In this document: positions 6,382 through 35,784 of the stretch, piece after piece | Numbering within the stretch: position 1 is the first letter of the stretch | How the letters are laid out: every line of letters starts with the position of its first letter | Assembly (NCBI GenBank): GCA_903884945.1 | Contig: CAISGR010000318.1 | Location: 1 to 64,000, forward strand | DNA from: an uncultured bacterium | GTDB taxonomy: Bacteria; Pseudomonadota; Alphaproteobacteria; Sphingomonadales; Sphingomonadaceae | Reading direction: 5' to 3' | DNA length: 64,000 bases | The notes under the pieces: model-generated | The model's database searches: none | Told to the model about the DNA's origin: nothing | Seen by the model: only the letters and a program-made list of their open reading frames with translations | Position numbers and translations under genes: made by a program

Positions 6382-8151
6382 ATGAAGCGGTTTCTGCGGA
6401 ATGCGTCTGCTTTCGCGCTGACGGGTGCGCTGCTCGCGGCGCCATTGATGGCAGCCTCCGACAAGCCGGTAGCGGCCGTCGCCGGCGCCGGCCCTACCGA
6501 TGCGGACCTGATGGCCGACGCGACGACACCCGGCGACGTGCTGACCTATGGCATGGGCCCGCGCGGCCAGCGCTTCAGCCCGATGACCACGATCAACAGC
6601 ACCAATGTCGCGAAGCTGGTTCCCGCATTTGCTGCGTCGCTCGGCGGCGAGAAGCAGCACGGCCAGGAATCGCAGCCGCTCGTCTATGACGGGACCATCT
6701 ACGTCACTGGCTCCTATTCGCGGCTGTTCGCCTTCGACGCCCGCACCGGCGAGGAGAAATGGGAATATGACGCCCGCCTGCCCGACGCGATCGTGCCGTG
6801 TTGCGACGTCGTCAACCGCGGTGCCGCGATCTATGGCGACAAGATCATTTTCGGGACGCTCGATGCCCGCCTGGTCGCGCTCAACCGCAATACCGGCAAG
6901 GTGATCTGGAACAAGGAAATCGCCGACTACAAGGCGGGCTACAGCTTCACGGCCGCGCCGATGATCGTGCACGGCAAGGTCATCGTCGGCAATTCGGGCG
7001 GCGAGTTCGGCGTGATCGGGGAGATCCAGGCGCGCGACGTCAACACCGGCGAACTGATCTGGACCCGCCCCACCATCGAGGGCAACATGGGCACGCTCAA
7101 CGGCCAGCCCAACGGCATTACCGGAAAGACCAACGCCACTTGGCAGGGCGATCAGTACAAGACCGGCGGCGGCGCGACCTGGCTGGGGGGCACCTACGAC
7201 CCGGACACCAACCTGATCTATATGGGAACCGGCAACCCCGCGCCGTGGAACAGCCATCTTCGGCCCGGCGACAATCTCTATACGGCATCCACGCTCGGCA
7301 TCGATCCGGATACCGGCCAGATCAAATGGCATTTCCAGACCACGCCGCATGACGGATGGGACTTCGACGGCGTGAACGAGTTCATCCCGTTCGATGCGAC
7401 GATCAACGGCAAGCCGATGAAGCTCGGCGCCAAGGCTGATCGCAACGGCTATTTCTTCGTGCTCGACCGTACCAACGGCAAGTTCATCTCGGCCTCGCCC
7501 TTCGTCACCAAGACGACCTGGGCGACGGGCTTCACCAAGGCCGGCCGCCCGATCTATGTCGATGCGAACCGGCCGGGGCCGCCGACCACGGAGAAGGGCA
7601 CGTCGGTCTTCGCCGCACCGTCCTTCCTCGGCGGCAAGAACTGGATGCCGATGGCGTACAGCCAGCAGACCGGCCTGTTCTACATTCCCTCCAACGAGTG
7701 GGGGATGGATATCTGGAACGAGCCGATCGCGTACAAGAAGGGCGCAGCCTATCTCGGCGCCGGCTTCACGATCAAGCCGCTCTACGACGACCATATCGGC
7801 GTGCTGCGCGCGATGGACCCGGCGACCGGCAAGATCATGTGGGAATACAAGAACAAGGCGCCGCTGTGGGGCGGGGTGCTGACCACGGCGGGCAATCTCG
7901 TCTTCACCGGCACGCCGGAAGGCTATCTCAAGGCCTTCGACGCGAAGACCGGGCAGGAGCTGTGGAAGTTCAACACCGGCTCGGGCGTGGTCGGATCGCC
8001 GATCACCTGGGAACAGGATGGCGAGCAATATGTCGCGGTCATGTCCGGCTGGGGCGGCGCCGTGCCGCTCTGGGGCGGCGAGGTCGCGAAGGCCGTGCAG
8101 CACATCAACCAGGGCGGTTCGCTATGGGTATTCAAGCTGCCGAAGTCGTGA
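6382..8151 (+). CDS. PQQ-dependent alcohol dehydrogenase (ExaA/PedH family), predicted lanthanide-dependent
   Basis: Vicinal disulfide PCCDVVNRG; quinoprotein tryptophan-docking blades; [11 protein letters not shown] carries the DxD lanthanide-coordination motif. Confidence 0.92.
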
Positions 8152-8243
8152 CCATGACCGGATCGGGGGTGGCGTTCGCTGCCCCCGATTTCGCACCACG
8201 CCGGTTTGGGGTACGCTCCGCGCACCAGGGAGATCGGGACTAC

Positions 8244-14369: not shown

Positions 14370-14451
14370 TCTCCTTGTGATGCGGCCGACGCCGTGACCG
14401 GCGCCTGAACCTTCATGCCCTGATGCGCCCTTTCATCGCCCGTCCGCTATT

Positions 14452-14473
14452 GGACCAAAGGGCAATTGGCAGG
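14452..14473 (+). promoter_or_regulatory. Candidate shared operator motif (copy B) in divergent promoter
   Basis: GGACCAAAGGGCAATTGGCAGG between ALDH (-) and pseudoazurin (+). Confidence 0.4.
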
Positions 14474-14542
14474 GGGAGGGCATGTCGGACATCCTCCGAG
14501 AGCACAACCAAGCCCGACCAGACCGGGCCCCGGGAGAGAGAT

Positions 14543-14986
14543 ATGATGAAGACCGCTCTGGCAATGGCCGCTCTTGCCGCGGCTGCCGCACTGTCCGCCC
14601 CCGCCTCCGCCAAGGACATCATCATCCACATGAAGGATCAGGGCGCGGGTGGCGCCATGGTATTCGAGCCCGCCTTTGTGAAGGCGATGCCGGGCGATAC
14701 GGTCAAGTTCCTCCCGACCAGCCCGATCCACAATGCCGAGACCATAGCTGCCATGCTTCCCGACGGAGTCGCTCCCAGCAAGGGGGCGATGGGCAAGGAA
14801 TTCGACCTGAAGGTGACCAAGCCGGGGCTCTACGGCATCAAGTGCCTCCCGCATTATTCGATGGGCATGATCGCCCTGATCCAGGTCGGCAATGGGCCAT
14901 CGCCGAACCTCGCCGCTGCCCGTGCGGCAAAGCTCGCTCCCCTGGCGGCCAAACGCATGAACGCGTTGCTCGCCGGGGCGAAATGA
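14543..14986 (+). CDS. Pseudoazurin (type I blue copper protein)
   Basis: Signal peptide; Cu ligands in IHNAE and CLPHYSMGM. Confidence 0.92.
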   Translation: MMKTALAMAALAAAAALSAPASAKDIIIHMKDQGAGGAMVFEPAFVKAMPGDTVKFLPTSPIHNAETIAAMLPDGVAPSKGAMGKEFDLKVTKPGLYGIKCLPHYSMGMIALIQVGNGPSPNLAAARAAKLAPLAAKRMNALLAGAK

Positions 14987-18341: not shown

Positions 18342-18890
18342 TTATCGCGCCTGCGCCGGATAGAGCAGCCGGAGCGAGGAGGGGGCGTGGCACTTGCGGA
18401 TCGCGACATTGGCATAGCGGGCGCGCTCCACCGTGAGGGCTGCCGTGGCCAGCGCCAACTGTCGCTCGCGTGCTACCTCGTCCCCTGTGAACGGCTTGGT
18501 TCCGGATGGTGCGCTGCCTTGGCCGAGCACGAACACCACGAAGTTCATCATGTCCGCGAGCTCGTCATTGTCCTTGATCCGGCTGTGGGCCACGTTGGGA
18601 AGGCGCAACAGATAGGCGCGCGATTGCGGCGTGCACATGAACCAGCCGACCCGCCCCCGCAGTTCGGGAAGCTGGGCCGGTGCGGTGCTGCCGTCGACCC
18701 CGTGGCATCCGGCGCAATACTCGAGATAGTCGGATCGCGCGAGCTCCGGATCCACCATCAATCGAACGGCTCCAGACTGGGTGGGCGTGGCCCGGAGCTC
18801 GCCACGCCAGGCGGCAAGGATGGCCACGGCCAATAACGCCAGAGTCATGGCAAGCCTGCGGGGCGGGGCCAGTATGGCGCGACCGTTCAT
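18342..18890 (-). CDS. Mono-haem c-type cytochrome associated with the amine dehydrogenase
   Basis: N-terminal hydrophobic segment; single CAGCHG motif; follows the light-chain gene. Confidence 0.8.
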   Translation of the reverse strand: MNGRAILAPPRRLAMTLALLAVAILAAWRGELRATPTQSGAVRLMVDPELARSDYLEYCAGCHGVDGSTAPAQLPELRGRVGWFMCTPQSRAYLLRLPNVAHSRIKDNDELADMMNFVVFVLGQGSAPSGTKPFTGDEVARERQLALATAALTVERARYANVAIRKCHAPSSLRLLYPAQAR

Positions 18891-18930
18891 GTCTGTTCCG
18901 CCGCTCCCGTCCGTCGTCCCCCGCCGCCGC

Positions 18931-19473
18931 TCAGGCCGTGCCGACCAGCACCGCGGTCGAGCAGTGATATTCCATACTGCTGGTGCCGAAACACCAGATC
19001 ACGTCATTGTTGAGCTGCGGCACGTAAAGTTGCGTCTCCCTGTCGGTATTGTTGCAATCGCACTTGGCGCAATAAGCCTTTCCGCAGCAATCGCGGTACG
19101 CGATGAGATAGGCCTTGCCGTCGTCCGGGTTGATGCAGGTGCCAACCCAGGAAACGGGCGAGGGCTCCGCGCCCGCCGGGCAGGTGTGCACACCGCCACC
19201 GCAGCAGGTGCACAGCGATCCGTCGATCGCGCAGTAGCGCCAGTAATTGCACTTGGCATCGTCCGTCGTCTGCGCGGCACGGGCGAAAGCGGTCTTTGCT
19301 TCGGGCGAACGATCGGGCTTGGCCGCCTCGGCGCGGCTTACCGGCAGAAGCGGGAATACAGGTGCTGCGACCAGCGCCAGCCCCAGCCTGGCGAGGACAC
19401 TGCGGCGGGATGTGCTCCCGGCAAAGCGGCGGAGCATCGTCTCCCCGATGGCGTCAGCATCGAACTTCTTCAT
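18931..19473 (-). CDS. aauA: Amine dehydrogenase small (light) chain, TTQ-containing (AauA/MauA family)
   Basis: Tat-like SRRSVL leader; Cys-rich CNYWRYCAIDGSLCTCCGG..SPVSWVGTC..YRDCCGK..NDVIWCFG..YHC; both TTQ tryptophans present. Confidence 0.95.
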   Translation of the reverse strand: MKKFDADAIGETMLRRFAGSTSRRSVLARLGLALVAAPVFPLLPVSRAEAAKPDRSPEAKTAFARAAQTTDDAKCNYWRYCAIDGSLCTCCGGGVHTCPAGAEPSPVSWVGTCINPDDGKAYLIAYRDCCGKAYCAKCDCNNTDRETQLYVPQLNNDVIWCFGTSSMEYHCSTAVLVGTA

Positions 19474-19525
19474 GAACGTGTCCCCTGTGATGCGGTGAGG
19501 CGCGCGCCGCCTGGTTCGAGGCCGG

Positions 19526-20128
19526 TCAGGCCACCTTGGCGGTAAGGTCGCGAATATAGTCCTGCACGGATCGGACCCCCATTTCGTGCGCGACGACCAG
19601 GCTTTCGAGATGCTCGCGGCTGTTCACCAGCCCCTTGGAGAGGATGACCCCATTCTCGTCGAGCAGCACGGCATAGGGCAGCTTGCCCACGGCGAACGCC
19701 TGGCCGACATCCGGTCCATTGATGAACTGATAGCCGCCAAGGCCATGACGCGCGATCATGTCGCGCTGCACCTGGGGTTCATCGTCGCCAACGAAGATCA
19801 GCATTACGCGTTCGTCATGGGCGAAGGACCTGGCCATCGGGATCAAGGCCTTGCAAAGCGGGCAGGTCGCCGAAACGAACATCAGCAACCTGAGCGGCAC
19901 GCCGGGCAGCGCGCCGCCGATCATTGCCTTCGTGCCATCAAGCGAGACGGCGGGGATGGCTGGAGCCCCGCTGCCGACCGAAGGTCCGCCAGCGGTGGTC
20001 AGTGCCCCGGCAGGCGCGACGCGCATGTGGAGAACGCCCACCTGCCGGGCCAGGGCGAGCAGCGCGACCCCGAGCGAAAGGATGATGATCCAGGAGATAA
20101 TCTGCGAAGCGAGAAGAATCGTGAGCAT
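19526..20128 (-). CDS. mauD: MauD/AauD-type thioredoxin-like amine dehydrogenase accessory protein
   Basis: N-terminal TM anchor, CPLC redox motif (SATCPLCKALIP); between light chain and mauE. Confidence 0.9.
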   Translation of the reverse strand: MLTILLASQIISWIIILSLGVALLALARQVGVLHMRVAPAGALTTAGGPSVGSGAPAIPAVSLDGTKAMIGGALPGVPLRLLMFVSATCPLCKALIPMARSFAHDERVMLIFVGDDEPQVQRDMIARHGLGGYQFINGPDVGQAFAVGKLPYAVLLDENGVILSKGLVNSREHLESLVVAHEMGVRSVQDYIRDLTAKVA

Positions 20129-20134
20129 CGGACC

Positions 20135-20695
20135 TTAACTCTGCTTGGCCGTGAGCGGAGACGCAGCAAGCGCCCCGATGGCGTTGAACAGGAGGATGAT
20201 CAGGAAGAGGCCCGCGCCGCCGGCGATGGCGGTGGCACGTTCGAGCCCGTTCGGCGCGGTGGCAGGCAACAGGGCGGGCAGGGCGATCGCCGACAAGACC
20301 AGATTGCGCCACACCAGCGGCCAGCTCAGCATTTGCCGGAGGTGCGATTGGCCGCACCCGCAGTCGATATGGCCGCGTCCGCGCCGGAGATTGAACACCA
20401 TCGCGGCTGCAAAGGCCCACAGCAACAGGATTGCCGGCAGCGCCGCGAAGCGCTGGCCTCCTGCGAGGAGCGCAACCCCGAGCGCGAGTTCCAAGGCCGG
20501 GAGCGCGCGTGCTACGGGCGCTACCAGCGGTTCGGGCAAGAGCCGGTAATTGGCGACGATGCCGGGCATCAGCCTGAGATGCCGCCATTTCGATGCGCCG
20601 GCCTGGACGAATACCAGCCCGACGCAGATCGCACCGGCGAGGCCGGCCACGTGCAGCGCCGACGAGGTGATGCCCGCGCCCGGCCCGGAGATCAT
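20135..20695 (-). CDS. mauE: MauE-type membrane protein (DoxX-like)
   Basis: 186-aa four-TM protein (VQAGASKWRHL..CGCGQSHL); between mauB and mauD. Confidence 0.88.
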   Translation of the reverse strand: MISGPGAGITSSALHVAGLAGAICVGLVFVQAGASKWRHLRLMPGIVANYRLLPEPLVAPVARALPALELALGVALLAGGQRFAALPAILLLWAFAAAMVFNLRRGRGHIDCGCGQSHLRQMLSWPLVWRNLVLSAIALPALLPATAPNGLERATAIAGGAGLFLIILLFNAIGALAASPLTAKQS

Positions 20696-21864
20696 GACGG
20701 GTCAGCAGCCACGATGACGCCGCCGCCGGCCTTCTCGAGCTTGAACTTCTCCGCCCACGTCGTCGCATCGAGGATGCGGACGGTACCGCTTTCTCCCGCC
20801 ACGATCACCTTGGGCGCGGCTTCCTGCGTCACCTCGATGGTCGAGGCCGGTTCATCGAGAGCGACCCGCTTGACGATTTTCCTGGTGGTCAGGTCGAGGT
20901 CCCAGACTTCGCTGCCCGCGGCCTTGTGCGACCAATATTCGCCCATGTGCATCAGCACATAGAGATGATTGGACGCCCGATGGAGGGCCAGCGGTTGTCC
21001 GCCGCCCGGATACCAGTTGAGCTCGAGCGGCTTGGTCTCGCCCGGCCGAATGCCGACCAGCGCCTGGATCGAGAAGGGGGCGGAAACCGTCGGCGAAGCA
21101 CCCATCTTGGCGGTGTAGACGAGGCCGGTATAGGTCACGAAGACCGCTTCGTGCTTCACCTTGTCATAGGCGAAATTGTCGAAGATCGGATCCTCGGTCG
21201 CCGAGAAGAAGGGCGCGGAGCGGGTTATCGCCGGCTTCGGGCCGCCGGTCGACACAGTCGCCAACGATCCGTCCGAGCAGAGCGCCGAAAAACCGATGCC
21301 GGGATTGGGAATCAGGCTGGCGCACCCGGGGAGTTCGATGGTGCGGACGAACTTGCGCTTCACCAGATCGATCATGTTGACCGACGACGCCGGGCTCAGA
21401 TTGTAGACAAAGGCGGTCTTGCCGTCGTCGCTGAGCACGAAGTTCTGCTTGCGGCCACCGATGAGAATGCGGCCGGGCATGGGGATCTCGGTCTGCAGCT
21501 TCAGGCCGGCTGAATCGTAGACAGTGACCATATCCTGCCGAACGCCGCGCCAGCCCTTGGTCCAGAGCGTCTCGGACACATAATAGAACCTGCCTGCGGG
21601 ATCGACTGCCATGTCCGAGAGGAGCGAGGTCTCCACCATGCCGACCATCTTGCCGTCGGCCGTATCGTAGATCGCAGTACCGGGCATGACGAAACCGCGG
21701 GTGACATAGATCCAGCTAGGCTTGGGCGGTGTGAGCGTACGGACGTCGGATTGTTCGGGCTCGTTACCGGCGACGGATTCGGCTCTGCCCAGCGTTGCTG
21801 CCGACAGCAGCGCGAACGCGAACGCGGACGTGGCGGAAAGCTTTCCGATGGCGGCGAACTTCAT
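20692..21864 (-). CDS. aauB: Amine dehydrogenase large (heavy) chain, beta-propeller
   Basis: PPKPSWIYVTRGFVMPGTAIYDTADGKMVGMV..; secreted; overlaps mauE by 4 nt. Confidence 0.93.
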   Translation of the reverse strand: MKFAAIGKLSATSAFAFALLSAATLGRAESVAGNEPEQSDVRTLTPPKPSWIYVTRGFVMPGTAIYDTADGKMVGMVETSLLSDMAVDPAGRFYYVSETLWTKGWRGVRQDMVTVYDSAGLKLQTEIPMPGRILIGGRKQNFVLSDDGKTAFVYNLSPASSVNMIDLVKRKFVRTIELPGCASLIPNPGIGFSALCSDGSLATVSTGGPKPAITRSAPFFSATEDPIFDNFAYDKVKHEAVFVTYTGLVYTAKMGASPTVSAPFSIQALVGIRPGETKPLELNWYPGGGQPLALHRASNHLYVLMHMGEYWSHKAAGSEVWDLDLTTRKIVKRVALDEPASTIEVTQEAAPKVIVAGESGTVRILDATTWAEKFKLEKAGGGVIVAADPS

Positions 21865-21971
21865 CTTGCCTGGCCCCTTTGCCTGCGATGGACGATCGGA
21901 TGCCTTGCGGCAGGTTCCCCCTCCGACGACCATCAGTCACTGCGACCAACAAATTGGACGGACGTCAAGTT

Positions 21972-24159: not shown

Positions 24160-24630
24160 ATGAAAATCGCATCGGTCATGACGCAATTCCTCGCGATCGC
24201 ATGCCTTGCGGTCTCTCCGTCGGCGCGGGCGTCCGGTTCGCAGACCTTCGGCGCGCAATGTTCGATGTGCCATCAGCCCAGCGGTGCCGGCTTGCCTGGC
24301 TCCTTCCCGCGACTGGCGGGGCGCACGCCGGTGATGGCGGGTTCGCCCGAGGGGCGCCGCTACCTTGCGATGGTCCTGCTGTATGGGCTCTACGGCCCGA
24401 TCAGCGTCGACGGAAAGCAGATCAGCGGGTTGATGCCGACGATGGGATCGCTCTCCGATCAGGCCATTGCCGAAGTGCTCAATCATACGCTGACGCTGGC
24501 GAGGCCGGCACACAAGGTCGCGCCTTTTACTGCCGCGGAGATCGCGGCCGTTCGCGCGGAACCCCGCAAGGGTGGCAGTGACGTCGCGGCGGAGCGCGCA
24601 CGACTGGCGGGGCGCGGGCTCATCCCTTAA
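24160..24630 (+). CDS. c-type cytochrome, likely electron acceptor of the IorAB-like enzyme
   Basis: Signal peptide, [22 protein letters not shown]; upstream of iorA-like gene. Confidence 0.85.
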
Positions 24631-24679
24631 GACCAACGCGGCGGACAGGTTCGAACTATACAGGCAGGGAAGAGGCAGG

Positions 24680-25156
24680 ATGGCGATCTCGCTGACGATC
24701 AACCGCAGGAAGCGCGTGGTCGATGTAGAACCGGACAAGCCGTTGCTCTGGGTGTTGCGCGAGGATCTCGATCTTCCCGGTACCAAGTTCGGTTGCGGCG
24801 CGGGCCTGTGCGGCGCCTGCACGGTGATCCTGGACGGCGATGCGGTGCGGTCCTGCCAGACGCCGGTCGGCGATGCGGTGGGCAAGCAGGTCATCACGAT
24901 CGAGCACGTCGCCACCCTTCCCGTCGGGAAGAAGGTGGTCGATGCCTGGGTCGATCTCGACGTGCCGCAATGCGGCTATTGCCAGGCGGGCCAGATCATG
25001 TCCGCCACCGCGTTGCTGACGCACACGCCCAAGCCAGCGCCTGACGACATCGCCGCAGGAATGAGCGGCAATATCTGCCGATGTGCAACCTATCTGCGAA
25101 TCCAGAAGGCGATCCGCAAGGCCGCCGGCCTCGACAGCGTGGAGGAGGCGGCATGA
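24680..25156 (+). CDS. [2Fe-2S] subunit of molybdenum hydroxylase (isoquinoline 1-oxidoreductase alpha type)
   Basis: [11 protein letters not shown] and [22 protein letters not shown] clusters. Confidence 0.93.
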
Positions 25157-27345
25157 GCGACACAGGTGCGATAACCCGCCGCTCGTTCCTCGCGGTATCG
25201 CTCGCCGGCGGCACGGTGCTGACCTTCAAGGCCGATCTCGTCCTTGCGCAGACCGGCGCCGGGGCCGCCGCGCCAGTCATGCTCAATGCCTTCATCCGTA
25301 TCGGCGCTGACAACCAGGTGACGATCGGTGCCAAGAATCCGGAGATCGGCCAGGGGGTGAAGGTCATGCTGCCCATGCTGATCGCCGAGGAACTCGACGT
25401 CGCATGGAGCCAGGTCCAGATTCAGCAGACCGATGCCAATGACAAGCTCTATGGCGTGCAGGTCGCGGGAGGCAGCACCGCCACCCCGACGAACTGGCTG
25501 CCCATGCGGCAGGCCGGTGCGGCGGCGCGCCAGATGCTGCTGACCGCAGCGGCCAGGCTCTGGGGCGTCGATGTCGCGACCCTGACCACTGCTGCCGGCA
25601 CGGTCTTTCACAAGGCAAGCGGGCGCAGCCTGCCCTACGCCGCCCTGGCGAAGGAGGCCGCAACTGTCCCGGCGCCCGATCTGGCCAAGGTGCCGCTGAA
25701 GTCGCCCGACGCATTTACCATCATCGGGAAGTCCGTACGCGGCGTCGACACGCCGCGCATCGTGAAGGGCGAGCCGCTCTACGGCATCGATACCAGACTC
25801 CCCGGCATGCTCCACGCGGCGCTGCTCAAATGCCCGATCGCCGGCGGCGCGCTAGCCAGCTTCGATGATACTGCGGCGCGAAAGACGCCAGGCGTGATCG
25901 CTGTCGTGCCTGTGAACAGTGGCCTTGTGCCGCAGGGCAGGAACGACGCGCTCGCGATCGTCGCGACGAGTTGGTGGACGGCGCAGAAGGCGCGCGAGAC
26001 GCTGGTGGCCAAATGGGACGCCATCACGCAGGCCGGCTTCTCGACCGAAGGTTATGCGAAACAAGCTGCCGCACTGCTCGGCGGGGTGCCGCAAGCCGAT
26101 CTGCACAAGGAAGGCGATGTCGACAAGGCCCTGGCGGGTGCGGCCAAGACCGTCACGGCCGACTATTCCTACCCGTTCCTCGCCCATGCGACGCTCGAGC
26201 CGCAGAACTGCACGGCGCTCTGGACTGCCGACGGCAAGCTGGAAATCTGGGCTCCGACCCAGAATCCCGGTTCGGGCCGCAAGGAAGTTGCCGCAATGCT
26301 CGGCATTGCCCCCGACGCGATGACAATCCATCTGACGCGCATCGGTGGCGGTTTCGGCCGGCGGCTGATGAACGACTATATGGTGCTCGCCGCGCAAGTG
26401 GCGAAGGGGGTGCCGGGCCGGCCGGTCAAGCTGCTGTTCGATCGCACCGACGATCTGCGCAACGACTATTACCGGCCGGCCGGCTGGCACCGTTTCACCG
26501 CAGGGCTCGATGCCAGCGGCGCGATCGTCGCCTTCAAGGATCACTTCGTGACGTTCGGCGCGGACGGCAAGCCGATCCGCGCCGCCGAGATGAGCGCCTA
26601 TGAATTCCCCGGACCGGTCGTACCCGATATGCAGTATGGCATGTCGTTCCTTGCGACCAATCTGGCCACCGGCTGGTTGCGGGCGCCGACGTCGAACGCG
26701 ATGGCCTTCGTGTTCCAGGGGTTCCTCGACGAGGTCGCGGAAGCCGCGGGCCTGGACTTGCCCGAACTAATGCGGCGCACCCTCGGCGCGCCACGCGAGC
26801 TGCCGGCGGAAAAGGGGCGCCCGGCATTCCACACCGGACGGGCTCGCGGCGTGATCGATGCGGTGTGCAAGGTCGCGGGCTGGACCGGGAAGCCGTCGAC
26901 CACCCCAGGCAAGGGGCGCGGCTTTGGCTTCTATTTCAGCCATCGCGGCTATTTCGCCGAAGTGGTCGACATCACCATACGCGACGGCGCGACCGTCATC
27001 GTCGACAAGATCTGGGTTGCAGGCGATATCGGCAGCCAGGTGATAAACCCGATCAATGCCGAGCATCAGGTGCAAGGTGCGGCGATCGACGGCATTGCCC
27101 AGGCGCTCGTGTGGCAGCCGATCGTGCAGGAGGGGGGGGCGGTCACCCAGGAGAATTTCCACGATTTTCCACTGCTGCGGATCGATGCGGTGCCGCGCGA
27201 CGTGGCGATCACCTGGGTGAAGACCGACTACCCGCCGACGGGTCTTGGCGAGCCAGCCCTGCCACCCGTGATTCCCGCAATCGGCAATGCCGTTCGTGCC
27301 GTGACCGGCAAGCGCCTGCGGAGCCTGCCTTTCCAGCTCGGCTGA
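25153..27345 (+). CDS. Molybdopterin-binding large subunit of aldehyde/isoquinoline oxidoreductase (IorB-like)
   Basis: Tat leader [46 protein letters not shown] active-site region; ATGA overlap. Confidence 0.93.
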
Positions 27346-27414: not shown

Positions 27415-27515
27415 AGATACTATGATTCTGGGGGCGACGGGAAAATCTCTTGTCGCAATGCAGCAAAGTCTATTGACCAATCCTTGACGGTTGTCCAAAC
27501 TTCCCTTCATGGACA

Positions 27516-27532
27516 GCGTTCGAATCGAACGC
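27516..27532. repeat. Perfect inverted repeat upstream of the likely qhpA ATG
   Basis: GCGTTCGA-A-TCGAACGC. Confidence 0.55.
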
Positions 27533-27562
27533 GGTCCGGTCCAAAAGGGGGTTTTGGCGCGC

Positions 27563-29380
27563 ATGGCTTTCCCGGATACCGACCATCCTGCACCGGACAT
27601 GATGCCGAGCGGGGCTGACGCCCCGGTACGTTCGCGCAGGCGGTTGGTCCGCCTGGGCTCGCTCCTTGCGACGGCCTGCTTTGCGACGGCGGTGGCGGCG
27701 CAGGTGAGCAGCACGGGCGATCAGGCGGAGACCGAGGAGGGCATCCCGGTCACCGACAGCATGACAACCGAGAAATGCGGCGCCTGTCATGCGCCGGACG
27801 CCAAGGGCAATCTCTCGCGTATCTCGTGGGTGCGGACCACGCCGGAAGGCTGGTCCCAGGCGATCAAGCGCATGGTGAAGCTGAACGGGCTGCAGATAAC
27901 GCCGGAGGAATCCCGGCATATCGTGCGGTATCTGTCCAACCAGCATGGCCTCGCCCCGGAAGAGGCCAAGCCAGTGATGTATCTTCCCGAGCATCGCATT
28001 CTCGACGAAACCAATATCCCCAGTGAATCGGTGCGCGGCGGCTGTGCCGCGTGCCACGCATTCGCCCAGCCCCTGTCGTGGCGACGGTCGGCGAAGGAAT
28101 GGAAGCTGCTGCAGGACTTCCATGTCGCACTCTATTCGCAGGCGGATGTGCAATATCGCCGTCCGGCGGTCGACGAGCCCGGCCCGGTGCTCGGACAGCC
28201 CACGCCGATCGTCCAGAAGCCCGGGGCGGTGCCTGTCACGCAGGGGCAAATCGCCCTGGAATATATCCGCAAGACCGCGCCGCTCCGCACCACCGAATGG
28301 ACTCAGTGGATGTCGCGGATGCAGACGCCCAGGCTATCCGGGAAATGGCTGGTCAACGCCTTCGTGCCCGGCAAGGGGCGCTATTTCGGTACGATGACGA
28401 TCACGCCGGGCAGCGACGGGGATGCCTTCAAGACTGGCATCGCGCTGCGATCCGTAGCGGATGGCTCGACCATCACGCGTGACGGTGCCGGCATCGTCTA
28501 TGCGGGGTATAGCTGGCGTGGCCGTTCGGCATCCGCCGCTGCGCCTGCCTCGCCGGCTTCGCTCGACAACCCGACACGCGAGACGATGTGGTTCTCACCC
28601 GATCGGAAGAGTGCCCAGGGGCGCTGGTTCTGGGGCGAGTATCAGGAGTTCGGCTGGGATGTGAAGCTGGTTCGCGCCGATGGCAGCCCGACGATCGCCG
28701 GGGTCGCGCCCTATGCGGTCAAGGCAGGCAGCAAGGGCGTGCAGATCCATATCTATGGCGACAGCCTGCCGGCATCAGCGGCGACGAAGGATGTGGATTT
28801 CGGTGCCGGGCTGGCCGTGACCAGGATCGTCTCCGCCAGCCCGACCGAGATCGTCGTCTCGGTCGACGCAGCGGCCGACGCGGTCGCCGGCATCCATGAC
28901 GTCACGGTCGGCACCGCGGTCCTCGGTGGCGCGCTGCCGGTATATCGCAAGGTCGACTATCTCAAGGTCACGCCCGAGACCGCGATCTCGCGCCTCGGCG
29001 GTGGCAAGCACCCCAAGGGCTATGGGCAATTCGACGCCTGGGGCTTCGACAATGGCCCGGACGGCAAGCCTTACACAGCCGACGACGTCAATATCGGCCC
29101 CATCGACGCTGACTGGAGCATCCAGGAGTTCCAGACCACCTGGTATGACGACGACACGAAATATGTCGGCAGCCTCAGCAAGACCGCGCTGTTCACGCCC
29201 GGCCTGGATGGTCCGAACCCGGATCGCAGCAACAACCGCAACAATTACGGCGATGTGTGGGTCGTCGCCACGGCCAAGACGGAGAAGGACGGCCAGGGCA
29301 AGCCCCTCACCGCCAAGTCTTATCTCGTCGTGACCGTGCCCGCCTACAAGCGCTGGGACCAGCCGGAGGTATCGCAATGA
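27563..29380 (+). CDS. qhpA: Quinohaemoprotein amine dehydrogenase alpha subunit (di-haem)
   Basis: Two haem c sites CGACH and CAACH; multi-domain layout; start uncertain (ORF can extend to TTG 27491). Confidence 0.95.
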   Translation: MAFPDTDHPAPDMMPSGADAPVRSRRRLVRLGSLLATACFATAVAAQVSSTGDQAETEEGIPVTDSMTTEKCGACHAPDAKGNLSRISWVRTTPEGWSQAIKRMVKLNGLQITPEESRHIVRYLSNQHGLAPEEAKPVMYLPEHRILDETNIPSESVRGGCAACHAFAQPLSWRRSAKEWKLLQDFHVALYSQADVQYRRPAVDEPGPVLGQPTPIVQKPGAVPVTQGQIALEYIRKTAPLRTTEWTQWMSRMQTPRLSGKWLVNAFVPGKGRYFGTMTITPGSDGDAFKTGIALRSVADGSTITRDGAGIVYAGYSWRGRSASAAAPASPASLDNPTRETMWFSPDRKSAQGRWFWGEYQEFGWDVKLVRADGSPTIAGVAPYAVKAGSKGVQIHIYGDSLPASAATKDVDFGAGLAVTRIVSASPTEIVVSVDAAADAVAGIHDVTVGTAVLGGALPVYRKVDYLKVTPETAISRLGGGKHPKGYGQFDAWGFDNGPDGKPYTADDVNIGPIDADWSIQEFQTTWYDDDTKYVGSLSKTALFTPGLDGPNPDRSNNRNNYGDVWVVATAKTEKDGQGKPLTAKSYLVVTVPAYKRWDQPEVSQ

Positions 29381-30828
29381 CGACCATGTTGGCTCATCGC
29401 TATCGGCGCGGCGAACTGCACCAGTTCCGCGCCGCCGATAACGAGTTCATCTATCTTGTTTCCGCCGGGGCGATCTTCGCGCTCGACGAAGGGACGCGCT
29501 CGGTACTCGACCTGCTCGGCGAGGACGAGATGGATCACGACGATCTGATCGCAGCGCTGATCGCCGTGGGCAACGATCCGGCCGATGCGGGCAGCCTGGT
29601 GCGCGAACTGCGGATGGTGCGGGCGATCCATTCCGATCAGGTCGTCCCGGCGCCGGCCCCCGCGGCTCCGCCGGCGGATTATCCGCTCCAGGCGCTGGTG
29701 CTCAACGTCACCAACCAGTGCAACCTGGCCTGCACCTATTGCTACGAATTCGGCGCCGACAAGATCGCGACGCCGCAGGGCAAGCCCAAATACATGACGC
29801 TGGAAACGGCGCGGGCTTCAGTCGACTTCCTGCTCGAAAGCTCGGGCAACCGCGAGGCGGTGCATATCACCTTTTTCGGCGGCGAGACGCTGATGAACTT
29901 CAAGCTGCTGCGCGAGGTCGTCGGCTATGCCAACAACCAGGCGGCCGCGGTGGGGCGCAGGATCACCTTCAGCCTCACGACCAACGCAACGCTGCTGACC
30001 GACGAGATCATCGATTTCCTCTCCGATAACGCGATCGGGGTCACCGTTTCCATGGACGGGCCGCCGGAGCTGCAGGACAAGCGTCGGGTCTACAAGAATG
30101 GCAAGGGCAGCTATGCCGTGATCGAGCCGCGGTTGCGCGCGCTGATCGCCCGCCATCGCACCCGAGCGATCACTGCCCGCGTGACGCTGACCGATGGCGT
30201 CACCGACGTCATCCGCATCTATCGCCATCTCAAGGACGATCTTGGCTTCCACGAAGTCGGCTTCGCCCCGGTAACCGCCTCCGATATCCAGGACTATTCG
30301 CTCGACGATGACGCGATGGCCGGAGTGCTGGGCGATTTCCACGCGCTTGCCGAGGAATGGCTCGACCATGCGTTGCGCGGCGAGATGCACGGTTTCACCA
30401 ATGTCAGCGAGACGATCGGCGAACTGATCCAGGGAACGAACAAATCCCATCCGTGCGGCGCCGGGCTCGGGCTGCTTGGCGTCAGTCCCTCCGGCGACCT
30501 TTCGCCCTGCCACCGTTTCACCGACGCGGACACGCACACGCTCGGAAACCTCGCCACCGGGCTCGATTCGGCGAAGCGCGAGGATTTCCTCACGCGCGGG
30601 CATGTCGGTGCCAAATATGAGTGCCAGTCATGCTGGGCACGGCCGCTCTGCGCCGGCGGCTGCCACCACGAGGCCTTTGTCCGCTACGGCGAGACCGGCC
30701 ACGCCAACCTGCATTATTGCGACTGGATCCGCGATTGGACCGATACCTGCCTCAAGATCTACGGCGCAGTCGCGGCGCGCAATCCAGGGTTTCTTGAACA
30801 TTTCGCTCAACGGAAGGGCTTGTCATGA
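29377..30828 (+). CDS. qhpD: Radical SAM/SPASM QhpC-maturase (thioether cross-link formation)
   Basis: CNLACTYC radical SAM motif; SPASM Cys cluster (CGAGLGLLGVSPSGDLSPC..CQSCWARPLCAGGC); ATGA overlap. Confidence 0.96.
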   Translation: MTTMLAHRYRRGELHQFRAADNEFIYLVSAGAIFALDEGTRSVLDLLGEDEMDHDDLIAALIAVGNDPADAGSLVRELRMVRAIHSDQVVPAPAPAAPPADYPLQALVLNVTNQCNLACTYCYEFGADKIATPQGKPKYMTLETARASVDFLLESSGNREAVHITFFGGETLMNFKLLREVVGYANNQAAAVGRRITFSLTTNATLLTDEIIDFLSDNAIGVTVSMDGPPELQDKRRVYKNGKGSYAVIEPRLRALIARHRTRAITARVTLTDGVTDVIRIYRHLKDDLGFHEVGFAPVTASDIQDYSLDDDAMAGVLGDFHALAEEWLDHALRGEMHGFTNVSETIGELIQGTNKSHPCGAGLGLLGVSPSGDLSPCHRFTDADTHTLGNLATGLDSAKREDFLTRGHVGAKYECQSCWARPLCAGGCHHEAFVRYGETGHANLHYCDWIRDWTDTCLKIYGAVAARNPGFLEHFAQRKGLS

Positions 30829-31154
30829 AGCATCTCAAGCCGATCAACATCAAGGCGCAGAAGATCGGGCAAAGCGTCGACTCGCTGGAGGAAGATGTCG
30901 TCGCGCTGCAACAACAGCCCCGGCCGCATGTCCCGATGGGCTGCACGCTGTCCTTCTCTCCGGGCTGGGAAGTCGATGCCGGTGGCGGCACGGCCGGCCT
31001 GTGCCAGCCGGTGGAGCGCGACATCTACGACTGTTACGTCACCTGCTTCTGGCCGGTGCAGGTGCCGGACCATGTCAACTATTCTCCCGACTGGGCGAGC
31101 AATTGCGCCGCCGCCACCAAGGATTGGCGCAATCTCGACCTCGTCTTTCCGTGA
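30825..31154 (+). CDS. qhpC: Quinohaemoprotein amine dehydrogenase gamma subunit precursor (CTQ-bearing)
   Basis: 109 aa; all cross-link residues conserved at constant offset +33 from Pseudomonas putida mature numbering (C40-E49, C60-D66, C74-D82; CTQ C70-W76). Confidence 0.97.
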   Translation: MKHLKPINIKAQKIGQSVDSLEEDVVALQQQPRPHVPMGCTLSFSPGWEVDAGGGTAGLCQPVERDIYDCYVTCFWPVQVPDHVNYSPDWASNCAAATKDWRNLDLVFP

Positions 31155-31213
31155 GACAGGATTTCCCCGGCATCCATGGCGGCCCGACCGTCTTTTCCAG
31201 GAAGAGAAGCAGC

Positions 31214-32350
31214 ATGACGAAGCTTCGCCCTTCAGGCGGCAGTGGTGGCCTGAAATTTCCGGTCGTGAAGACGCTCGTGTCGACACTAATCGGCGCGACG
31301 CTCGGGCTCGCGGCTCCGGCCCGGGCCGATACCCTGCTCCTCGGCACCTATCCGGACAAGATGTTCACCGTCGACGAGGCAAGCGGCGCGATCAAGGAGC
31401 GTATCCAGCTCGCGGCGGGCCTGCCCACCTCGATGCGTCTCTCCAATGACGGCAAGCGAATCTATGTCACGACGATCACGACCAGCGGGATGGTCGTGCT
31501 GGACAGCGCGACGCGCAAGATTCTCAACCAGTTCAGTCTCAATACGCCGACGACGCGCTACCGCTTCAACGGTGGCGTGCCGGACCCGACGGGGCGCTAT
31601 TTCTACACGCAGCTCATTCGTTTCGACAAGGAAGCTGACCGCTACAAGGTGAGCAAGCCGATGTACGCCGTCATCGACCTGCAGCTCAAAAAGGTCACGC
31701 GCACGGCGGAGGTCGACGCGGAGGACGACACCCTTGGCGGATACCGCTCGACCTTCATGATGTCGCCCGACGGCAAGACGCTCTACCTGTTTCGCGACAA
31801 GGTGCTGGTGCTCGATGCCGCGACGCTCAAGGTGGTGGAGCGGCTCGACCTCGCCAAGCCCGAAACCACCGGCATGGAGAATGTGAGCTTCGCGGGCGGT
31901 GTCGAGGGGCTGCAGAATCCCAACGAATATGTCTCGCTGTTCAACGCCGCCGACCCGTATATCCACAACAAGATATTTGGCCTCGGCCGCTTCGACCTGA
32001 CCCACCGCAAGTTCGATTTCACGCCGATCGGCCCGGTGCCCACTGCGATGTCCGGGCTCGAGATCACGCCGGACGGGAAGAATGGCTACGCCGTCGTCAC
32101 CAACGGCACGCTCGGCAACAAGCGCTGCGAAATCTGGCACTTCGAGATGGCGTCGACGAAGCTGCTCGACAAGGCGGAATTCCATTGCCGCTCGCGTTTC
32201 ACCTTCGGCATGTCCGGCAATGGCGAGAAGCTCTACATCTATGGCGCCAGCTATGACATCGAGGTCTATGACGCCAAAACGCTGAAGCTTGATCGAACCT
32301 GGGATCTGGGCGCCGACGCGACGATGGCCGGCATGCTCATTTTGAAGTGA
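31214..32350 (+). CDS. qhpB: Quinohaemoprotein amine dehydrogenase beta subunit (beta-propeller)
   Basis: Secreted propeller ADTLLLGTYPDKMFTVDEASGAIKERIQL; located between qhpC and qhpG. Confidence 0.93.
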   Translation: MTKLRPSGGSGGLKFPVVKTLVSTLIGATLGLAAPARADTLLLGTYPDKMFTVDEASGAIKERIQLAAGLPTSMRLSNDGKRIYVTTITTSGMVVLDSATRKILNQFSLNTPTTRYRFNGGVPDPTGRYFYTQLIRFDKEADRYKVSKPMYAVIDLQLKKVTRTAEVDAEDDTLGGYRSTFMMSPDGKTLYLFRDKVLVLDAATLKVVERLDLAKPETTGMENVSFAGGVEGLQNPNEYVSLFNAADPYIHNKIFGLGRFDLTHRKFDFTPIGPVPTAMSGLEITPDGKNGYAVVTNGTLGNKRCEIWHFEMASTKLLDKAEFHCRSRFTFGMSGNGEKLYIYGASYDIEVYDAKTLKLDRTWDLGADATMAGMLILK

Positions 32351-33360
32351 GCGCCGCGCCGGCCAGGGTGCTGATACGCGGCGGCGGGGTATCGGCCGCG
32401 ACTGCCGCACGGCTGTTGTCCGGTGAAGGCGTTCCCCTGACCGGCGCGGGGGACCTCGTCCGCTCTCCCGCGCCGGTCATCATGCTCAGCGATCCGGCGC
32501 TCGCTCTGTTGCGCGATATCTTCGGACGCGCCGATCTTTTTGCCGGAAGGCCGCGGATCGAGCGGCGCATCGTTGCCTGGGGCGGCGGGGAGCCCGTTGC
32601 TCCTCCGCACGGGGCGATCATCGTTACCGGTAGCGACATCGCGGCAGAACTGGGTACGCACCGGTTGCCACCTGACGACGGCAAAGCGTCTTTCACGATC
32701 AACGGCGCGCCGCCCTTTCCGGATGGTGCTTTACGCCGCTTCGGCGCGCGGGAAGCGGTCGCGGCAACGGTCGAACTCATGCCCGAAGCCGATGGACACG
32801 CATGCTATATCGAGGCGACTGCGAGGGGCTGGCTGTTCCTGATCCCGCAGGGCGTCGGCACGGCCTGGCTGCTCGGTGTCGGTGGCACGCCGGACGCGTT
32901 GCTCGGGCCGAGCCGGCTGGTGGCGGCGCAGGTCCGGAAGCTTGGTCCGGTCGTGGCCAGGTTCGAGACGGCGCCGCGCATGATCGAGTGCCTGGCCGGC
33001 GACGACTGGATCGCTTGTGGCACCTCTGCGATCGCCTTCGATCCGATCTGCGGCGATGGTACGGCGCAGGCTGCCCGGGAGGCGATCCTCGCCGCCGCCG
33101 TGCTCGTCGCCATTCGCGATGGCGGAGATCGGAAGGCGCTGCTCGACCATTACCAGTCAATGCTGATCGCGGCGATGCGCCGCCATCTCCAGGTCAGTCT
33201 GCCCTTCTACCGCAGCGGCGGCATTTCGCCCTGGTGGCGCGCGCAAGCTGATGCGCTTGCCCAAGGCCACGCCTGGTGCACCGCGCGTCTTGCAACCATG
33301 CCGGAGCCGCGCTTCCTGTTGCGCGGCACTCGGCTCGTTCCTAGGGAAGAGGCGGCTTGA
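32347..33360 (+). CDS. qhpG: FAD-dependent monooxygenase for QhpC tryptophan hydroxylation
   Basis: N-terminal Rossmann ARVLIRGGGVSAATAARLLSGEG; GTG start overlapping qhpB stop; operon position. Confidence 0.88.
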   Translation: MSAAPARVLIRGGGVSAATAARLLSGEGVPLTGAGDLVRSPAPVIMLSDPALALLRDIFGRADLFAGRPRIERRIVAWGGGEPVAPPHGAIIVTGSDIAAELGTHRLPPDDGKASFTINGAPPFPDGALRRFGAREAVAATVELMPEADGHACYIEATARGWLFLIPQGVGTAWLLGVGGTPDALLGPSRLVAAQVRKLGPVVARFETAPRMIECLAGDDWIACGTSAIAFDPICGDGTAQAAREAILAAAVLVAIRDGGDRKALLDHYQSMLIAAMRRHLQVSLPFYRSGGISPWWRAQADALAQGHAWCTARLATMPEPRFLLRGTRLVPREEAA

Positions 33361-35081
33361 TCGCCTCCCTTCCGATGCCGCCTGCGCCGCCGGTGGCCGA
33401 ATGGCGGACCTATCGGCGGCTGGCCCCCTATGTGCGTCCGTACCTGCGGTCGTTGCTGGTCGTTCTGGTCGTCAGCCTGCTTTCGACGGCGTTCGGCCTT
33501 GCCCAGCCCTATCTCTCCAAGCTGATGATCGACGATGCCTTGCTGCAACGGAACATGACTGCACTTGTGGCCGTGTCGGGCGCCATGATTGCAGTGACCC
33601 TTGGCGGCTTCGTGCTCAACATCTTTGCCAGCTATCGGTATGTCGCGCTCTCGGCAGCGATGCTGTACGATATGCGGGTCGCGCTGCTCCGCCACCTTCA
33701 GTCGCTCAGCCCGCGCTTCTATGGCGGGTTCCGGCTTGGCGACCTGATGTCTCGTATCAACAGCGACGTCAGCGATGTGCAGCGCGCCGCCGGGGACACG
33801 TTGCTCTCGGTGCTCAGCAACGTGCTGTTCCTGATCGGCTGCGTGGGCATGATGTTGTGGCTCAACTGGCGCTTGTTTCTTGTCGGCACGCTATTGGTGC
33901 CCGCCGCCGTGGCGGTGTTCCTCCACCTCCAGCGCAGGGTCACCGGGCTGACGCGTGACATGCGCGAGCGCGGGGCAGATCTCGGCAGCCTGTTGCTCGA
34001 TACCGTGATGGGCATGCGCGTGGTTGCCGCACTCGGTGCGGAGGAACATGAGGTCGCGCGGTTCGAGAGCCGCAACAACGCCTTTGTCCGCGCGATGCTG
34101 CGGATGCAGGTGGCGTCGTTCCTTGCCGGCGCCCTGCCGGGCACGTTGCTGACTGCCTCGACCTCGGCCGTCACCCTCTATGGCGGCTGGGAGATCATCC
34201 AGGGCCAGATGTCGATCGGTTCGCTGGTTGCGTTCATGGCCTATCACATGCGCGTGTTCGGGCCGATCCAGGCCCTGCTCGGCCTCTCGTCCGGGCTTGC
34301 CTCGACCCGCGTCTCGCTCGCGCGGATCTTCGAATTGTTCGATACGCCGGCCGATGTCGCCGATCCCGAACGGCCGCACCCGCTCGGGCCGGTGCGGTCG
34401 GGCATTCGCTTCGAGAATGTCTCGTTCCGTCATGATCGCGAGGCAGTGCTTGTGGGAATGGACCTCGAGATTCCGGCTGGCTGCTTCTGCGCGATCCTCG
34501 GCGAAAGCGGTGCCGGGAAGTCGACCATGGCGGACTTGATGGTTCGCTTCCTCGACCCGCAACAGGGGTGTATCCTGGTCGACGGGCAGGATCTACGCGA
34601 TGTACGACTTGAGGAGCTGCGCCGTGAGGTCCTGCTGGTCGATCAGTCGCCCTATTTGTTCAACGACACGATCGCGGCCAATATCGCCTTCGCCATGGCC
34701 GGTGCGTCACGCCTGCGGATCGAGGCGTCGGCGGTGGCGGCTGGCCTCGGGGCACTGCTAGAGCGCCTGCCCAAGGGGCTCGACACCCCCGTCGGCGAGC
34801 GCGGCCTCGCTCTTTCCGCGGGGGAGCGCCAGCGCATCGCGCTGGCACGCGCGCTGCTGCGGAATCCGAGCGTCCTGATTCTGGACGAGCCAACCGCTGC
34901 GCTCGACGCAATGACGGAGCAACGCGTCGCCGAAGGACTGCGCCAGGCACTGCCCTTGGCGACAATCATCGTCATCACCCACAAGCCGGCGCTGGCCCGC
35001 CAGGCTGACCTGGTGGTGAGGGTGGAGCAGGGCAGGGCGCAGGTTTCGCCGATGCGTGCAGTCGGGCATGCGCTGGCCTGA
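33357..35081 (+). CDS. qhpF: ABC transporter (fused TM-ATPase) for QHNDH maturation
   Basis: Six-TM domain plus Walker A GESGAGKS, signature LSAGERQR, Walker B VLILDEP. Confidence 0.93.
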   Translation: MIASLPMPPAPPVAEWRTYRRLAPYVRPYLRSLLVVLVVSLLSTAFGLAQPYLSKLMIDDALLQRNMTALVAVSGAMIAVTLGGFVLNIFASYRYVALSAAMLYDMRVALLRHLQSLSPRFYGGFRLGDLMSRINSDVSDVQRAAGDTLLSVLSNVLFLIGCVGMMLWLNWRLFLVGTLLVPAAVAVFLHLQRRVTGLTRDMRERGADLGSLLLDTVMGMRVVAALGAEEHEVARFESRNNAFVRAMLRMQVASFLAGALPGTLLTASTSAVTLYGGWEIIQGQMSIGSLVAFMAYHMRVFGPIQALLGLSSGLASTRVSLARIFELFDTPADVADPERPHPLGPVRSGIRFENVSFRHDREAVLVGMDLEIPAGCFCAILGESGAGKSTMADLMVRFLDPQQGCILVDGQDLRDVRLEELRREVLLVDQSPYLFNDTIAANIAFAMAGASRLRIEASAVAAGLGALLERLPKGLDTPVGERGLALSAGERQRIALARALLRNPSVLILDEPTAALDAMTEQRVAEGLRQALPLATIIVITHKPALARQADLVVRVEQGRAQVSPMRAVGHALA

Positions 35082-35784
35082 GTCCGGCACCGGTGCCGGG
35101 GTGCGCGTCGCCGTGATCGACAGCGGCGTGCAGCCGCAACATTCGCATATTGGTGCCGACAGGATTCTTCCCGGCGCGGCGATCTTTGCGGACGGCACCG
35201 TGCGGCTCGGTGAGGACGTCACGCTCGACCGGCTTGGCCATGGCACTGCCGTCACGGCTGCGATCCAGGAAAAGGCGTCCGATGCCGAGATTCTGCCGAT
35301 CCGCGTTTTCCACGAAGCGCTGAAGACAAGCGCTCGCGCGCTCGCCGTTGCGATCGGCTACAGCCTGGACCTGGGCGCGGATGTCATCAATCTCAGCCTT
35401 GGCACGGCCAATTCCGCCCATTGCGCGCTCTTCGCCGATCTGGTCGCCCGGGCGAAGGAGCAGGGGGTGCTCATCGTCGCTGCACGCGAGGCCGACGGTC
35501 GGCCCTGTTGGCCCGGCGCGCTGGATGGTGTGCTCGGAGTCGGGCTGGACTGGGATGTGCCGCGCGACATCTGGCGCGTTGAGGGAGGGGTATTCTACGC
35601 CTCCGGCTATCCCCGCCCGATCCCCGGTGTGGCGCAGCGCCACAACCTCTACGGCATCAGCTTTGCGACCGCCCAGGCGAGCGGCTTCGCCGCGCGCACC
35701 GTCGGCAGGCTACGGGCGGAGGGCGGGGACGAGAGGGATCTGCTTTCCGCATTGCTGCAGCCCCCCACCGCCTTTCCTGCCTGA
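35068..35784 (+). CDS. qhpE: Subtilisin-like serine protease, QhpC leader peptidase
   Basis: Catalytic motifs VAVIDSGVQ, GHGTAV, GISFATAQASG; last gene of operon. Confidence 0.92.
   Translation: MRWPESGTGAGVRVAVIDSGVQPQHSHIGADRILPGAAIFADGTVRLGEDVTLDRLGHGTAVTAAIQEKASDAEILPIRVFHEALKTSARALAVAIGYSLDLGADVINLSLGTANSAHCALFADLVARAKEQGVLIVAAREADGRPCWPGALDGVLGVGLDWDVPRDIWRVEGGVFYASGYPRPIPGVAQRHNLYGISFATAQASGFAARTVGRLRAEGGDERDLLSALLQPPTAFPA

Follow-up and report, generated by a model that had tools for sequence, protein, structure and literature searches.

A MauG-less TTQ amine dehydrogenase cluster and its constantly linked monohaem cytochrome, a candidate for cofactor maturation

How TTQ is formed in aromatic-amine-type dehydrogenases has been an open question since their gene cluster was found without mauG. 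The same question is raised by a TTQ amine dehydrogenase cluster on the minus strand at 21933-18342 of the window (the whole stretch of 64,000 nucleotides that was analysed), which has the layout B-E-D-A followed by the gene for a monohaem cytochrome, here called U. The genes of the cluster and two possible electron carriers encoded in the same window are as follows:

20692..21933, minus strand: heavy chain (aauB/mauB-like), PF06433 (Me-amine-dh_H) 1.1e-45
20135..20695, minus strand: MauE-like membrane protein, PF07291 1.1e-26
19526..20128, minus strand: MauD-like thioredoxin-fold protein, TIGR02661 2.5e-50, under the equivalog cut-off
18931..19473, minus strand: light chain, PF02975 (Me-amine-dh_L) 7.6e-53
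18342..18890, minus strand: U cytochrome, an exported monohaem c-type protein of 182 aa with a single CAGCH, U-family profile
24160..24630, plus strand: P1-type cytochrome with a canonical distal Met (LMPTMG), P1-profile match, between the TTQ and CTQ clusters
14423..14986, plus strand: plastocyanin/azurin-family cupredoxin, PF00127 1.2e-13

The original prediction, made without database searches, had described a TTQ cluster with both TTQ tryptophans, MauD, MauE, a heavy chain and a single-CAGCH cytochrome, and this description held, with all five genes in place. The TTQ tryptophans lie in SWVGTC and VIWCFG and the catalytic Asp in YRDCCG of the light chain, and all three residues were invariant among 133 aligned light chains. 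The heavy- and light-chain families together with these residues identify the cluster as one for a TTQ amine dehydrogenase, while TTQ formation and amine oxidation themselves are inferred. The best PDB chains for the heavy chain were aromatic amine dehydrogenase (2.2e-40) and then MADH (9.4e-37), and its signal peptide probably starts at the internal Met at 21864, the coordinate of the first reading, which gives a clean signal peptide. The cupredoxin might serve as electron acceptor of the TTQ enzyme, a role that is only inferred, and the P1-type cytochrome is a possible electron carrier.

The locus meets the definition of an aau-like layout (B-E-D-A, then a monohaem cytochrome, with no mauG or mauF) and fails that of an MADH-type mau cluster, in which mauG and mauF are linked to mauBEDA. 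An MADH or AADH label taken from the best PDB match was rejected, since the heavy- and light-chain matches disagree and the light-chain tree places the window in neither clade. In that tree, which rests on only 113 columns and a midpoint root, the window light chain falls in a well-supported Sphingomonadales group outside MADH and outside the AADH clade holding Alcaligenes faecalis, so it is not an AADH proper by the test of grouping with the A. faecalis enzyme.

A quinohaemoprotein (CTQ) amine dehydrogenase cluster occupies 27491-35784, its start some 5.6 kb away from that of the TTQ enzyme, so that two different tryptophylquinone enzymes are encoded as neighbours. It contains QhpA, the radical SAM protein QhpD, the gamma subunit QhpC, the beta subunit, an ABC transporter and a subtilase, with a possible QhpG at 32347-33360 that has no Pfam match. 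In the interval between the two clusters, beside the P1-type cytochrome, a molybdenum hydroxylase-like pair (2Fe-2S and large subunit) was assigned by eye at 24572-27345.

The prediction that mauG and mauF are absent from the window cluster also held; locus comparison found no MauG, MauF or MauJ linked to it. It had left two options, that MauG is encoded elsewhere or that another maturase acts, and had proposed a genome search for Tyr-ligated di-haem proteins of the MauG/BthA type. The source genome is suited to such a search (6.48 Mb, 99.99% complete, 2.4% contamination). Only two CCP_MauG proteins were found in it, one CcP-like (C259) and one MbnH-like (C24), and they scored 154.4 and 160.7 bits against the MauG equivalog model TIGR03791, so no MauG above the cut-off of 443.85 bits exists genome-wide. 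Tyr-His ligation is a mark of MauG/BthA (PMC6405878). In our alignment the position of MauG Tyr294 holds Tyr in 4/4 true MauGs, Met in one of the two proteins and His in the other, with the His sitting beside a gap. The search for Tyr-ligated candidates was thus negative, and a MauG acting in trans in this genome was rejected on the scores and the missing axial tyrosine. A MauF query against the same genome also gave no match, although this query had no positive control.

It could still be argued that one of these unlinked di-haem proteins matures the TTQ enzyme in trans, and both are indeed present in the genome. This explanation is very unlikely: both score under the MauG cut-off and carry Met or His at the Tyr294 position, and the C259 protein (476 aa, with a third CxxCH near the N-terminus) has as its best match a probable cytochrome c peroxidase that carries an additional haem domain at the N-terminus. 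Moreover, 17 genomes with the same cluster layout have no such protein, as described below. The MbnH-like di-haem gene on C24 (L002:1105-2720, 367 aa) adjoins a gene for a 208-aa protein without Pfam match, a possible tryptophan-modified partner of its own.

The need for MauG was then judged across relatives. None of 26 light-chain genomes passed the MauG cut-off, and 11 of them had no match to the MauG model at all. With the broader PF03150 model, which recovered the family in Escherichia coli as a control, no CCP_MauG protein was found in 14 of 15 light-chain genomes nor in 3 of 9 further ones. Five of these 17 CCP_MauG-free genomes are one- or two-contig assemblies (G480, G009, G143, G649 and G531). 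Since such clusters occur in 17 genomes without any CCP_MauG protein, MauG is not needed by genomes of this layout. Both kinds of cluster can also coexist, as in G316, where L055 has MauF and MauG and L058 lacks MauG. In the flank of one U-type cluster (L273, G915:C45) there is a CCP_MauG-type protein with 114 bits to MauG; true linked MauGs score 240-880 bits in the same kind of test.

The option of a MauG encoded elsewhere is therefore unsupported, and a different maturase or self-assembly is left; the interpretation given in the original prediction is supported. Self-assembly would mean that TTQ arises without a dedicated maturase, by autocatalysis with O2 or a metal after folding by MauD and MauE, or through an unlinked general oxidase, with U as an accessory. 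The absence of MauG from the 17 genomes speaks for it. Autocatalytic formation is known for other quinone cofactors such as TPQ, which we also counted in its favour. Against it, it leaves unexplained that every intact MauG-less cluster contains U and that U does not occur in the absence of a light chain, and we consider it unlikely.

The single CAGCH cytochrome had been cited in the first reading only as a sign of the missing MauG, and the comparison of loci makes it the leading replacement candidate. U was present in 144/144 intact MauG-less clusters examined (113 + 11 + 20 loci). In the main set of 121 loci, 113 had U only, four had MauG only, none had both and four had neither; the clusters with MauF, MauJ and MauG were L055, L078, L085 and L087, and U occurred in none of these four. 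Of the four loci with neither, one (L142) is truncated by its contig end and three are B-A-only clusters, two of which represent one locus. All 11 loci of a second sample contained U, as did all 20 loci drawn at family level once the model had been fixed. The universality of U and its mutual exclusion with MauG are thus shown for these loci. Many of the loci come from close relatives, and the U counts are not independent events.

The linkage holds at the genome level as well. Strong U matches (E<1e-30) occurred in 12/385 genomes of the class sample, exactly the 12 with a light chain (Fisher 5e-23), and in the second, phylum-level sample in 11/399 genomes, exactly those with an intact light chain; weaker matches of the U profile elsewhere resemble ordinary cytochromes. 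The U gene lay on the light-chain strand in 124/124 cases, either directly after the light chain (30-357 bases from its domain) or after one P1 gene (363-834 bases). Among the 113 loci, U occurred with P1 in 48 and alone in 65, whereas P1 never occurred alone; by locus co-occurrence, P1 is dispensable and U is not.

Two apparent exceptions were rejected. Locus L142 seemed to lack U, but its contig ends inside the light chain, and on a plasmid of Novosphingobium RL4 what seemed to be a U gene lacking a light chain is of the P1 type, with no light chain nearby. At L186 (Ferruginivarius sediminum, near 7201-8241), a single ORF scores 221 bits to U and 168 bits to P1, an apparent fusion.

No Pfam or NCBIfam family describes U, which gives only generic, weak cytochrome matches. 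Its best solved relative is the Thermus thermophilus cytochrome c552 (1C52, profile 6e-24), which is also the nearest PDB fold to its AlphaFold model (pLDDT 95, TM 0.60/0.66). U meets the criteria of a class I, c552-like cytochrome c in its CxxCH and fold and fails that of a distal Met ligand. The profile match falls into two blocks, U 20-60 to c552 10-50 and U 65-121 to c552 73-130, and the c552 segment between them, about 20 residues including the distal ligand Met69, has no counterpart in U. Likewise, in an alignment with P1, which keeps the distal Met in 52/52 sequences, about 19 residues bearing the invariant Met of P1 are deleted in U. The loss of the Met loop is thus shown. Near-invariant residues in 121 U sequences are CxGCH, Pro, Arg, Pro, Asn, Glu, Arg and Arg, and no conserved Met, His or Lys in these sequences replaces the distal ligand. 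The sixth haem position is likely to be open; this is inferred from sequence alone, and the AlphaFold model contains no haem, so that a non-conserved residue or water might occupy it. Two further Cys columns outside the haem motif, each filled in 71/121 sequences including that of the window, suggest a clade-specific disulfide.

On the reading we prefer, the haem of U has an open site and U takes over from MauG the completion of TTQ. The window would then encode a periplasmic TTQ amine dehydrogenase of a MauG-independent kind with the layout B-E-D-A-U. By analogy with MADH, MauE and MauD would serve the export and folding of the disulfide-rich light chain. Deletion of the distal Met-bearing loop would leave the sixth haem position of U open, and reaction with H2O2 or O2 would give a ferryl species that forms TTQ by oxidising the light-chain precursor, the task that di-haem MauG performs in methylamine dehydrogenase. 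The peroxide chemistry and the maturase function are inferred, without biochemistry, and we put the probability of this reading at roughly 0.55. A single haem is, to our knowledge, without precedent as catalyst of the six-electron Trp-Trp cross-link. Also counting against a maturase are a few clusters that consist of heavy and light chain alone (B-A), without MauE, MauD, MauG or U, namely L052/L149 (the same locus, from Bacterium HR40) and L165; Bacterium HR40 has a full cluster elsewhere besides its B-A-only one.

A further objection is that a dedicated redox partner or an extra subunit should also co-occur constantly. U could be a dedicated electron acceptor or docking partner, the counterpart of amicyanin, with TTQ made by something else. 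The light-chain gene of MauG clusters is often followed by that for amicyanin, so U might replace amicyanin and not MauG; it sits in the place that amicyanin has after mauA in Paracoccus and Methylobacterium. In addition, periplasmic dehydrogenases often have a monohaem cytochrome as partner, and the overall fold of U is that of an electron carrier, c552. Against this explanation, U lacks the Met ligand that holds such carriers six-coordinate, and it is retained even where a Met-bearing P1 is nearby (48 loci). In the MauG clusters L055 and L085, mauA is not followed by amicyanin and U is missing too, so the absence of amicyanin does not by itself bring U. Characterised AADH passes its electrons to azurin (PDB 2h3x/2h47/2iaa), and this was also counted against a redox role. 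The redox-partner explanation nevertheless remains possible beside the preferred reading of U as maturase.

Most TTQ clusters sampled are of the MauG-less kind. In the light-chain tree the four MauG clusters group together in one clade (100/100), nested in a half in which all other intact clusters have U. This suggests that MauG may have replaced U once, a possibility that the few columns and the midpoint root leave tentative. On a bolder reading, most TTQ amine dehydrogenases would have their TTQ completed by a c552-type monohaem cytochrome that lost its distal Met, and di-haem MauG would have replaced it later, once, and in the methylamine branch only; we lean slightly against taking the case that far. 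What can be said is that the MauG route, the only route to have been studied, is restricted to one small branch, that the easy answer of a MauG elsewhere has been removed, and that a single candidate gene, clearly marked by its structure, has been named. Should U prove to be the maturase, a single open-site haem can do a job for which a bis-Fe(IV) di-haem system was believed necessary.

Among known systems, the aau (aromatic amine dehydrogenase) cluster of A. faecalis is the closest in layout. It was reportedly described without mauF, mauG, mauL, mauM or mauN and with a monohaem cytochrome, orf-2 (Chistoserdov 2001), so that, as reported, it shares with the window B-E-D-A followed by a small monohaem cytochrome and the lack of these five genes, whereas the window light chain lies outside its AADH clade. 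The novelty implied by the title of the original prediction was therefore overstated; the mauG-less cluster itself is not new, and what is new here is the generality of such clusters and their constant linkage to U. Recombinant aauBEDA with orf-2 is reported to give active AADH in Paracoccus (Hothi 2005). However, this host has MauG, and the result therefore cannot decide whether MauG is needed. The mau clusters of Paracoccus and Methylobacterium share with the window homologous heavy and light chains, MauE, MauD and the TTQ residues; they carry MauF, MauJ and MauG (often with amicyanin, MauM and MauN) and no U, whereas the window has U and none of these three. Cytochrome c552 of T. thermophilus is the best match of U in both sequence and fold, from which U differs in lacking the Met69-bearing segment. 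The di-haem family of MauG, BthA and MbnH consists, like U, of periplasmic c-type haem proteins, and MauG oxidises protein tryptophans as is proposed for U, but U has a single haem, another fold and no recognisable sequence relation to them. QhpG represents a known MauG-free route to a tryptophylquinone (PMC7876137). This QhpG/QhpD route to CTQ differs in its agents, a flavoprotein of the cytoplasm (QhpG) and a radical SAM enzyme (QhpD), and in its CTQ subunit, a different protein; it is likewise a way to a tryptophylquinone without MauG, and its qhp cluster lies in the same window.
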